Positions 18,665-22,741 of a stretch of DNA of 50,593 nucleotides are shown here, one piece after another (the stretch's first letter is position 1; each line of letters begins with the position of its first letter). The DNA is from a virus, in IMG/VR virus record IMGVR_UViG_3300047408_000090, positions 1 to 50,593 of that record. One strand, given 5' to 3'. A program made the position numbers and the translations under genes. A model generated the notes under the pieces. That model was given only the letters and a program-made list of their open reading frames with translations, had not been told where the DNA came from and made no database searches.

Positions 18665-19036
18665 ATGAATACCGCAGTACGCACACCACGGAATGGAGGC
18701 GAGCCATTGCCAGAACATCGTCAGAAGGCAGTCGAGGCCGGACTAGCAACCTATCAGCAAGTGCTGAGTGAACGCGACGAATTGGAAAACAAGTTACGCG
18801 ACGCTACGCTAAGGATCGAGGCGTTGACCGTGCAGCTGGACGCGCTCAAAGGCGTGACCAACATGATGGAGTCAACGTACCTTACGACCAAACTGGAAAT
18901 GGAAAACCGCGTCAATACACACATGGCGCAACGTGACGAAGCGGTACGGCGCACGGCAGAGTTAGAAACGACACTGACCAATATCGTGCTGGTCATCCGC
19001 AACGCTGTGATCGAGCCTGAGCATGGAGCCTCCTGA
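18665..19036 (+). CDS. Coiled-coil protein
   Basis: A 123-residue protein. From about residue 30 to 110 it is one long predicted coiled coil (SERDELENKLRDATLRIEAL, ALKGVTN, LTTKLEMENRV). The 5' gene ends right before it. Such proteins in phages may act as linkers or scaffolds; no specific family is recognised. Confidence 0.62.
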   Translation: MNTAVRTPRNGGEPLPEHRQKAVEAGLATYQQVLSERDELENKLRDATLRIEALTVQLDALKGVTNMMESTYLTTKLEMENRVNTHMAQRDEAVRRTAELETTLTNIVLVIRNAVIEPEHGAS

Positions 19037-19610
19037 CGTGATCCGCAGACCGTGCATGGGACTGCCGCCTGGAACGCCGTGCCCGACGCATGCGCTCGGC
19101 ACGTGGCCGAAGCATTGCATCTGTTACCAAGAGGGAAATTATCCAATGCGACGTGATCGTCTGACGTGGATAACTATTGGTATCCTGATTGCATTAACAA
19201 CCGGTATCGGAGTGTGGCTTGCAATCGAGTTTGCATTCGGAGCAGACGTAGACCCCGTGTGCATGACAAAGGCGCAAGCCGCAGCGAGATATCCAAAACA
19301 GTGGCTTTACTGGCACGGCGCTAACCACTGTTGGGATAATCATTCCGGACGATTAGCAGTACGGCACCCGGCAGCACCGCAACCTGCACCGGAGCCGCAC
19401 GCGCCGTCGATCGACATGCCAGAAGGTAATCCATCGATTGCGTACCCTTCACTTATGCATGGAGGCGGCACCGACGACGCAATGCTGCGGCCACAACCCA
19501 TGACAGGTTGGCCAGAAATTTTTGACTTTGATGTGGAGCCTCCACCGTTTATTCCGTGGCGGCAACGCATCTCCTTCACTGTGGCAACGGAGAACGAGGG
19601 TAAGCCGTAA
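19023..19610 (+). CDS. Membrane-anchored periplasmic protein
   Basis: A 195-residue protein if read from ATG 19023, overlapping the previous stop by 14 bases. A better topology starts at ATG 19146: a basic MRRDRLTW followed by a hydrophobic helix (ITIGILIALTTGIGVWLAIEF) and then a periplasmic part with YPKQWLYWHGANHCWDN, two cysteines and a long Pro-rich tail. The WYWHG/CWD segment recalls a family of small alphaproteobacterial and phage exported proteins without known function. It is placed directly before the two PEP-CTERM genes, which also act outside the cytoplasm. Confidence 0.6.
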   Translation: MEPPDVIRRPCMGLPPGTPCPTHALGTWPKHCICYQEGNYPMRRDRLTWITIGILIALTTGIGVWLAIEFAFGADVDPVCMTKAQAAARYPKQWLYWHGANHCWDNHSGRLAVRHPAAPQPAPEPHAPSIDMPEGNPSIAYPSLMHGGGTDDAMLRPQPMTGWPEIFDFDVEPPPFIPWRQRISFTVATENEGKP

Positions 19611-19638
19611 TTAAATTACCTTCATCCTAGGAGAACTA

Positions 19639-20301
19639 ATGAAGAAACTTGTTGGAATGCTGGCAGCAATCTCGCTGTCAGTGGGGATAGGGACGGCACA
19701 AGCTGCGACGCTTGGACCGGACCTTGCAACCGAAGGGCTCACTTATAATTTCTCAATTATTGGTGGCGCTCTTAATTCGACGTCCGCTACGTTCCAGGTT
19801 GAAATCACCGGCATCAATGTTGTCGGCACCGATACAAGACTTGGACGCAGCGGCATCAACGCCTTTGCTTTCAGTACACCGAACCTTCCCACTATTTCGT
19901 CAGGCAGCACCACACTTGCGGGTGCGACCTTTCAAAGTACTGGATTGAATTCCGGTGGCTGCAGTAACGGTGGTGGGTTCTTCTGTTTCGGAAATACCGG
20001 TGCCGCTAGTACACCGGCACTTGCTTCCGGTACAGTTATTGACATCGACTTCACGTTGAACTTGGCTTCGGGAAATTTCCTCGCGTGGGACCCCGCTTTC
20101 AAGATCGACTGGGCCGGTAATCAGAATAACTTCAGTCTTGTTTCTGAGACCATTCCACTCGGACCGAACGGGACACCGTTCAGCTCTCCACCGGGTGAGA
20201 CACCGCTTCCAGCAGCCGTCTGGCTGTTTGGTAGCGCTCTAGGCGGTGGCGCGTTGCTGCTGCGTAGGCGTAAGAAAGCTGCAGCGATCGTTGCGGCCTA
20301 G
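19639..20301 (+). CDS. PEP-CTERM sorting domain protein
   Basis: A 220-residue exported protein. Residues 1-22 are a signal peptide with cleavage after AQA; the middle is Gly/Ser/Thr-rich and beta-strand-like. The C-terminus from residue 188 reads PLPAAVWLFGSALGG, a hydrophobic stretch and then LLLRRRKK, the typical exosortase-recognised PEP-CTERM tail of proteobacteria. In bacteria the tail is cut and the protein passes into the exopolysaccharide layer. The phage has no exosortase gene in this window, so the host would have to supply it. AGGAGA precedes ATG 19639. A second, related gene follows at 20326. A phage carrying this sorting signal is unusual. Confidence 0.85.
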   Translation: MKKLVGMLAAISLSVGIGTAQAATLGPDLATEGLTYNFSIIGGALNSTSATFQVEITGINVVGTDTRLGRSGINAFAFSTPNLPTISSGSTTLAGATFQSTGLNSGGCSNGGGFFCFGNTGAASTPALASGTVIDIDFTLNLASGNFLAWDPAFKIDWAGNQNNFSLVSETIPLGPNGTPFSSPPGETPLPAAVWLFGSALGGGALLLRRRKKAAAIVAA

Positions 20302-20325
20302 AGACAACCTTGCAAGGAGTGTTTG

Positions 20326-20922
20326 ATGAAGAAACTACTGCTTGCTGCGGCTACCGTACTCGCCATGTCGGCGGTTGCGATGGCCGATACCGTCTCCAGC
20401 TTGGGGACTAACCCCACGTCTGGAGCCGGTGCCTTCTCCAATACCAATCCCGGTACTGGAGCAGGAGGTTCAGGATTGTTTGCCGACATCTACACGTTTG
20501 ATCTTGTCGGTGCACAGGTCCTGACCATTGCGTTTGCTACCAATACGTTTGCGTCTGGCGACCCGCAATTCATTACCAACTTTCAAGGTGCGGTAGTGAA
20601 TGACGGACCGAACGGCGTACCCGGTGGTGGTGACGACTTCGTTGTACTCGGTCCTGAACTAGCAGCGGCATGCGTTGGTATCCCGAACTGTCAAGTGTTT
20701 GGCGGTTCAGCGGTACTCTCCGGTGGCAGCTATTATTTGCTGATCACCGGCAACGCGGGTGTCGATGCTGGCTACGGCGGAAACCTCAGCACGTCTGCTG
20801 AAACTCCGATCCCTGGAGCGATCTGGGGATTTGCCAGTGCAATCGGTGGAGCGTATCTCGCGATGCGCAATCGTAAGCGGAAATATAAATCCGCTTGGGA
20901 TCAAAAACTAATAGCGGCCTAA
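20326..20922 (+). CDS. Second PEP-CTERM-like exported protein
   Basis: A 198-residue protein with a signal peptide (MKKLLLAAATVLAMSAVAMA) and a Gly/Asn/Thr-rich exported body that has one Cys pair. From residue 160 the tail reads TPIPGAIWGFASAIGG, a transmembrane stretch and RNRKRK. This is a PEP-CTERM variant: IP instead of EP/LP, but the same hydrophobic and basic plan. AAGGAG lies before ATG 20326; a TTG three bases upstream is unlikely. The body resembles cell-surface proteins sorted with exosortase. It ends at a palindrome (20920-20931) and the likely terminator beyond. Why two copies are kept is unclear. Confidence 0.8.
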   Translation: MKKLLLAAATVLAMSAVAMADTVSSLGTNPTSGAGAFSNTNPGTGAGGSGLFADIYTFDLVGAQVLTIAFATNTFASGDPQFITNFQGAVVNDGPNGVPGGGDDFVVLGPELAAACVGIPNCQVFGGSAVLSGGSYYLLITGNAGVDAGYGGNLSTSAETPIPGAIWGFASAIGGAYLAMRNRKRKYKSAWDQKLIAA

Positions 20923-21796: not shown

Positions 21797-21829
21797 AAAA
21801 GGCCGCTGCGAGGGGTGCCCACAGCGGCC
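21797..21829 (-). terminator. Rho-independent terminator for the leftward late operon
   Basis: GGCCGCTG at 21801-21808 pairs with CAGCGGCC at 21822-21829. Read on the minus strand the stem is followed by a run of T (21800 to 21795), so it ends leftward transcripts from the late genes. On the plus strand there is no T run. Confidence 0.8.
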
Positions 21830-21904: not shown

Positions 21905-22003
21905 TCAGCAGCAGTTACCGTAACCGGAAAGGTGCACGCCAATTGAAACGGCGACGACGATCCCGATTATCAACAACGCGATTTGCACAACACCTAATTT
22001 CAA
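21905..22003 (-). CDS. 32-residue membrane peptide with TTG start
   Basis: A short frame beginning at TTG 22003, which overlaps the stop of the previous gene (TTGA), with AAAGGA at a spacing of about 8. The peptide has a single hydrophobic helix (VVQIALLIIGIVVAVSIGVHL) and ends in NCC. The ribosome binding site and gene spacing match the rest of the operon. Its role is unknown; lysis-related function is possible by position only. Confidence 0.5.
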   Translation of the reverse strand: MKLGVVQIALLIIGIVVAVSIGVHLSGYGNCC

Positions 22004-22434
22004 ACCAGCGGTCCTTTTATCACGGCAGGACGCAGCTCGCTCATTAACGCAACCTCTACTTCATCATCAGTCGTGATCCCCAGATCGAACATCAAGCCTT
22101 CACTGATATCCGCAACCCTATCTGTATCTACATGCGGTCCCCAATCAGCCGGGAAAGCTGTCAATGTGACTTGCGTCTTTACGGCACGAATGACTACGAG
22201 CTCTTTTAATAATTGCTCCTTAGAATAAACATCGTAGTCCCACCGGCACGCGATAAAGTGCACGTATGGATTTAATCGTCTCGCCAATCCTGTTGTGTCG
22301 GGAGGCTGCGTTGGCAAGAATAAATGCGGTGCCATTTCTATTTCGTAAATGAAGGCTAGCCCTTCGTCTGGCGCTACCCCTTTATCATTCGGTCCACCGA
22401 ACCACGAGACCTTTCCTCTGAGCCGTAATGCCAT
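22000..22434 (-). CDS. Double-psi beta-barrel (RlpA-like) protein
   Basis: A 144-residue protein of the late end. The segment AFPADWGPHVDTDRVADISEGL followed by LGITTDDEVEV resembles the RlpA double-psi beta-barrel motif (D-R-V-I-D-L-S...LG), a fold found in peptidoglycan-binding or -cutting proteins. A long first half has WFGGPNDKGVAPDEG and RWDYDVY. It could act on the cell wall during exit, or be a structural baseplate-associated protein. No signal peptide is seen. Start ATG 22434 behind GAGGTG. The assignment rests on a short motif, so other beta-barrel roles are possible. Confidence 0.6.
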   Translation of the reverse strand: MALRLRGKVSWFGGPNDKGVAPDEGLAFIYEIEMAPHLFLPTQPPDTTGLARRLNPYVHFIACRWDYDVYSKEQLLKELVVIRAVKTQVTLTAFPADWGPHVDTDRVADISEGLMFDLGITTDDEVEVALMSELRPAVIKGPLV

Positions 22435-22438
22435 GGCT

Positions 22439-22741
22439 TCACCTCTTCGGTTGCGCTCCACACTCGCTGCGGTAGATCGCAGGGATCAAGTAGTTGCCCA
22501 CCGGGTGCGACGTAAAGCCTGGATCGTCCGGACCAGTCGCCACCGCGATCGTGGGATCGCACGACGTTCGCCGTATCAGATCGATCGCCATCGCCAGTGG
22601 CGGCACCACGGCTAGCGGCATTGCTCGCGCTGGCTCTTGCGCTGGAGCGTCTTTATAAATCCGCACGTGCGCACGACGCGCCTCCGCTGCAGCCGGTAAC
22701 AACAGCGTCAGCATAACAATTACAAAGATCGTTCGCTTCAT
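22439..22741 (-). CDS. Small exported protein, late operon
   Basis: A 100-residue protein with a clear signal peptide (MKRTIFVIVMLTLLLPAAAEA) and CAGGAGAT before its ATG. The mature part has PPLAMAIDLIRRTSC and two cysteines. It lies between the RlpA-like gene and another single-membrane-helix protein, so a periplasmic role in lysis is conceivable. The family is not recognised. Confidence 0.6.
   Translation of the reverse strand: MKRTIFVIVMLTLLLPAAAEARRAHVRIYKDAPAQEPARAMPLAVVPPLAMAIDLIRRTSCDPTIAVATGPDDPGFTSHPVGNYLIPAIYRSECGAQPKR

Follow-up and report, generated by a model that had tools for sequence, protein, structure and literature searches.

Two exported phage proteins with exosortase-type tails and a candidate surface-display cassette

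Why would a phage carry two tandem genes for exported proteins whose C-termini look like the address label of an exosortase, and what could the products do to the infected cell? The question is raised by a virus record of 50,593 bases (IMG/VR IMGVR_UViG_3300047408_000090), analysed over its whole length and here called the window. The same pair of slots recurs in several unrelated soil phages, and the resemblance of the tail ends to that label suggests that these phages probably use the sorting machine of the host to dress the infected cell.

Two tandem proteins and their tails

The window encodes a large terminase, portal, protease/major head protein, contractile tail sheath, baseplate and tail fibres on the virion side, and a polymerase, primase, helicase, RecE-like exonuclease and RuvC on the replication side, a gene set that, with its contractile sheath, identifies a myophage. 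The phage isolate collection contained no close DNA relative of the window, and tRNAs gave no hint of the host. The structural genes run leftward in a late operon that ends with a probable lysis gene (22000-22461, minus strand), common to most cassette phages, and beyond it lies a strong intrinsic-terminator-like hairpin (21801-21829, minus strand) between the convergent operons. The opposing, rightward non-structural operon, from the helicase onward, encodes near its end a conserved coiled-coil-like protein (18665-19036, plus strand), a conserved signal-anchor protein (19023-19610, plus strand) and directly downstream the two genes in question, slot 1 (19639-20301, plus strand; 220 residues) and slot 2 (20326-20922, plus strand; 198 residues). 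The signal-anchor protein carries the motifs LYWH[GT]A..CWD and P.FIPW..R, and W.H..CWD and FIPW-like motifs are invariant in this protein, which accompanies the slots in most cassette phages; it is a possible functional partner of them. In one related phage (G010) the lysis protein (L054:5836-6783) is fused to what by eye is an amidase-like domain.

Both reading frames stand where the sequence-only reading had placed them, each with a ribosome-binding site of good Shine-Dalgarno type. Slot 1 has AGGAG (19629-19633) before its ATG at 19639, and AAGGAG (20314-20319) sets the start of slot 2 at ATG 20326 rather than TTG 20323, yielding 198 residues. Slot 1 consists of a signal peptide (19639-19704, residues 1-22), a body (residues 23-186) and a tail (20197-20298, residues 187-220; ETPLPAAVWLFGSALGGGALLLRRRKKAAAIVAA), and slot 2 of a signal peptide (20326-20385, residues 1-20), a beta-sandwich body and a tail (20800-20919, residues 159-198; ETPIPGAIWGFASAIGGAYLAMRNRKRKYKSAWDQKLIAA). 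Read by eye, the predicted signal peptides end at AQA/A and AMA/D, respectively. As is characteristic of PEP-CTERM proteins, each begins with a signal peptide and lacks further membrane helices, judged from the sequences and alignments. In both tails a proline motif, P[LI]P[AG]Ax-W-x-F-x, is followed by a hydrophobic stretch and an Arg-Lys cluster at the protein end. A DNA pattern for the tail core, drawn up after the tails had been seen, occurs at exactly two places in the 50.6 kb, the two slot tails, and in 0 of 100 dinucleotide shuffles. The claim that this phage encodes two exported proteins with exosortase-type tails is upheld.

These tails had been named PEP-CTERM. The exosortase type holds, and the PEP subclass does not, since the motif is P-L/I-P and not P-E-P, which makes the tails VPLPA-like. 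They show the order of the VPLPA-CTERM class, with motif, helix and basic cluster at the protein end. Profile searches had been proposed as a check on them, and here the outcome was divided. The window's own tails stay below the curated cut-offs: slot 1 scored 16.2 bits with VPLPA-CTERM (TIGR03370; cut-off 25.35), where slot 2 was not listed, and 10.2 bits with PEP-CTERM (TIGR02595; cut-off 16), and no window protein matched PF07589. Homologous phage proteins, three of which were tested, passed the VPLPA-CTERM cut-off with 28.1 (L011), 31.3 (L018) and 28.3 bits (L020). P, P, A, W and F of the motif are invariant in the slot-1 and slot-2 alignments while the helix varies; some rows of these alignments were fetched via the motif itself, but the body had served as query for the slot-1 rows and for the first loci of slot 2.

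Many phage tails extend 5-20 residues past the basic cluster and share an AW[DPS] motif (KSAWD, GAWDDLPRVDFLPK, AWPKY) across unrelated bodies, in the part that an exosortase would discard. In some very short phage proteins of about 72-97 residues (L103, L113, L117, L146, L147, L169 and L171) a Cys immediately precedes a tail resembling VPIPAAVWLFAS. Another phage PEP-CTERM body family (L018:5407-6096 and L159) has WCLD and TQLAIW motifs reminiscent of thioester (TQXA) adhesin domains; TIGR03934 matched L018 at E=0.022, below its cut-off.

The AlphaFold model of slot 2 is a nine-strand beta-sandwich, with pLDDT mostly 77-91 in the body, followed by one C-terminal helix. Its closest folds are pre-peptidase C-terminal (PPC) and collagen-binding domains (Foldseek E 4e-5; Z 11.1, rmsd 2.7 over 105 residues). 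Over residues 6-159 of 199 the protein aligned to the body model of FxDxF PEP-CTERM proteins (NF038126) with 29.1 bits (E=1e-6), and one relative scored 31.2 bits, both below the cut-off of 50. We read the slot-2 body as a beta-sandwich of PPC-like fold with kinship to bacterial PEP-CTERM proteins of the FxDxF type; to share a fold is not to demonstrate a function. The slot-1 model (pLDDT 33) has no usable fold.

The single helix, the sub-threshold scores of the window's own tails and the convergence of the cassette on a lysis gene are what one would also see if the tails were plain C-terminal membrane anchors. The products would then be inner-membrane proteins facing the periplasm, which might for example block the DNA entry of a second phage or tune lysis, all without an exosortase. 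A generic anchor, however, needs neither a Pro-Pro-Trp-Phe motif that unrelated bodies all retain despite a changing helix, nor relatives that score above the VPLPA-CTERM cut-off, and we regard this explanation as rather unlikely.

A recurrent two-slot cassette with exchangeable parts

Phage genes of this kind had been called unusual. The two genes are not a one-off and belong to a modular cassette of two slots that recurs in phages unrelated to each other. IMG/VR searches with the bodies gave 25 and 9 loci and a tail-pattern scan gave 97 stretches; together these yielded 77 distinct phage proteins in 23 clusters, with spurious frames among the tail-pattern matches left out (L110, L118, L133, L151 and L157). 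Since some clusters are fragments, the number of real body families is lower, about 20. Sixteen distinct tandem pairs were found, with families 1, 2, 4, 5, 9, 10 and 13 upstream and families 0, 6 and 7 downstream, without overlap.

The phages with this cassette differ in virion type and have hardly anything else in common. Among complete or long records, the window has almost nothing but the cassette and its neighbourhood in common with phages of other kinds, and only 2.6 kb of its 50.6 kb aligned to the DNA of relative G001, and every aligned part lies in the region of the cassette, lysis gene and fibres. The terminase of the window was present in only one (G003) of 22 relatives, some of whose records are fragments. 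The virion markers are a contractile tail sheath in the window, a podovirus-like amidase in G001, a tail tape measure in G008 and a head-tail adaptor in G009, while G011 and G014 have other terminases and portal. The siphophage-like G008 also encodes a phosphoadenosine phosphosulfate reductase (L037:3734-5017; PHROG match).

Within this cassette the bodies are under strong purifying selection. The slot-1 bodies of the window and G001 share 96% of their protein and 84% of their DNA positions (dS 1.04, dN/dS 0.021); against G005 and G006, which with G001 make up the three more distant phages, dN/dS was 0.023 and 0.028, and it was about 0.06-0.11 for slot-2 bodies. Slot 1 is the best-conserved protein shared by the window and G001, ahead of the coiled-coil (69%), signal-anchor (56%) and lysis (44%) proteins. 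This conservation speaks for a partner or function that stays constant for each body.

Tails and bodies recombine separately. The pairwise tests are many and mutually non-independent and most single pairs are not significant, and the cleanest case is therefore that of G001 and G002. Here about 75 bp of slot-1 tail DNA differ at many sites, with about 600 bp on each side identical or nearly so; at four-fold sites 0 of 98 differ in the body versus 7 of 19 in the tail (Fisher p = 1e-6). In the lineage relative G007, DNA upstream is 86% identical to that of the window and the first 32 nt of slot 1 are identical; beyond this the slot-1 bodies are identical only at the shuffled level (0.50 vs 0.49) and the tails are similar. 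The slot-2 bodies of this pair are unrelated (0.48), yet they share the same unusual WGFAS tail (0.69, z 6.8). Related phages thus place unrelated bodies behind an identical signal-peptide start. Tails can also be shared by unrelated bodies, at a nucleotide identity of 0.86-0.87 where the mean is 0.54 (sd 0.07).

This recurrence also bears on whether host PEP-CTERM genes were joined to phage contigs by mis-binning, or chromosomal DNA was taken for phage. The founding paper, with PEP-CTERM proteins in bacteria only (PMC1569441), would favour such an origin. Against it, the same genes, in the same order and with the same flanking phage genes, occur across many independent metagenome assemblies, and the slot genes are embedded between phage operons. 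The slot-1 body was absent from 84,980 bacterial and archaeal genomes, and the slot-2 body from 397 genomes of the Bradyrhizobium order in a search without positive control. Contamination with host DNA is rejected for the window and its close relatives on these grounds, and we consider it highly improbable. In the phage isolate collection neither slot 1 nor slot 2 had a match, and the tail gave only partial matches at chance level.

A candidate host and its exosortase

That the phage lacks an exosortase of its own had been noted, and none is present in the window, in 22 related virus records or, by alignment search, in viral_contigs. The enzyme would have to come from the host. The lysis protein led to a prophage of Bradyrhizobium sp. 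SRL28, the nearest host-linked relative, which matches the window in tail sheath (63%), portal (59%), head protein (57%) and baseplate (71 and 64%). Beside its lysis gene, in the place of the slots, this prophage has two tandem signal-peptide proteins without PEP-type tails (L070 11621-12460 and 12393-12818). The exosortase of SRL28 is of the XrtV type, with PEPxxWA-like tails (tail model just under its own cut-off), and not XrtD. Exosortases were found in 9 of 61 sampled Bradyrhizobium genomes, one of them XrtD (546.8 bits) with TPLPAALPLFA-tailed proteins near its locus, and XrtD exceeded the cut-off in 2 of 392 Xanthobacteraceae genomes. The relationship to SRL28 and the presence of exosortases, including XrtD, in genus and family make a Bradyrhizobium-like host with an XrtD-like enzyme plausible.

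VPLPA-CTERM tails in the Bradyrhizobium order are mostly of the VPLPA-[A/G]-L-P-L type. Among 288 genomes of the order, 6 exceeded the TIGR03370 cut-off, and two of the 6 contain many weaker copies; a search of a single genome with this model cannot show absence. A scan for the exact W-x-F tail core in 20 Bradyrhizobium, 392 Xanthobacteraceae and 398 Pseudomonadota genomes found no true case; the single match, in the Xanthobacteraceae (L090), is spurious, since no protein with a signal peptide ends there.

Proposed function and comparison with known systems

The observations are best accommodated, with moderate likelihood in our judgement, by a phage-borne surface-display cassette whose bodies are sorted by the host exosortase and remodel the coat, superinfection exclusion being the likeliest benefit. 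Judging from their canonical signal peptides, the slot proteins would be exported by the host Sec pathway and held in the inner membrane by the C-terminal helix, where P[LI]P[AG]Ax-W-x-F and the basic cluster would mimic the VPLPA/PEP-CTERM label of the host. A host exosortase, probably XrtD-like, would then remove the tail and hand the body over to the outer envelope or to exopolysaccharide. The sequences themselves show the export signal, the tail type, the conserved cassette, the selection and the module exchange; cleavage and surface delivery go beyond them and seem to us fairly likely. Before lysis, the displayed bodies may change the surface of the infected cell and hide or alter receptor or exopolysaccharide sites against competing phages; modification of the matrix ranks next. 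Phages that infect the same hosts would exchange bodies independently of tails.

As to what a changed surface would be for, exclusion of other phages is a tentative proposal made by analogy, and alteration of the matrix is, likewise by analogy, just as tentative. The slot proteins could be surface proteins of host type that phages have captured and that alter biofilm or exopolysaccharide to the benefit of the phage, by spread through the matrix or release from it, with no role in excluding rivals. The bodies do resemble bacterial PEP-CTERM proteins, some of which function in flocs and biofilms (PMC9850573, PMC12188702), and PPC-like folds occur in polymer-binding domains. The location of the genes at the end of a non-structural operon and the recurrence of the bodies as alternatives at one locus fit phage competition at least as well, and this matrix-directed function seems to us possible but doubtful. 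One may speculate further, at slightly longer odds, that unrelated phages of one host group share the recombining cassette, that it supplies the host exosortase with exchangeable bodies, and that the coat type chosen by the resident phage decides which phages still infect.

If surface display is correct, phages employ a bacterial sorting enzyme that they do not encode to bring proteins of their own to the surface of the host, which would help to show what display of the PEP-CTERM type can achieve in the course of an infection. The exchange of two-slot modules would provide a means of asking if there are interchangeable exclusion types among infected cells.

The Llp protein of phage T5 is a superinfection exclusion lipoprotein that acts on one receptor. 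The slot proteins resemble it as phage-encoded proteins with predicted export to the host envelope, and differ in having an exosortase-type tail and several exchangeable bodies; exclusion here is argued by analogy. With the PEP-CTERM/EpsH system (TIGR02595; Haft 2006, PMC1569441) they share the tripartite tail, the signal peptide and bodies of little known homology, but PLP or PIP replaces the near-invariant PEP, and the genes are viral and form a tandem two-gene cassette. Phage is not mentioned in that founding paper (PMC1569441), and no description of a phage cassette of PEP-CTERM-type genes was found in the open-access papers searched. In a passage of a study of Yellowstone viruses, TIGR03118 proteins with a putative exosortase-interaction C-terminus are listed as gene-transfer products (PMC11003980); they are alike in this C-terminus and differ in being listed there without cassette, module exchange or host analysis. 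The FxDxF PEP-CTERM proteins (NF038126) align with the slot-2 body, which differs by its score of 29-31 bits against a cut-off of 50 and by its place in a phage cassette. In VPLPA-CTERM proteins (TIGR03370) with XrtD (TIGR04152) the V/T-P-L-P-A-A start, hydrophobic helix, Arg/Lys cluster and N-terminal signal peptide are all as in the slot proteins, whereas the latter are encoded by phages without exosortase, have a W-L-F core, score below threshold in the window itself and often, among the phage tails at large, carry the AW[DPS] extension.
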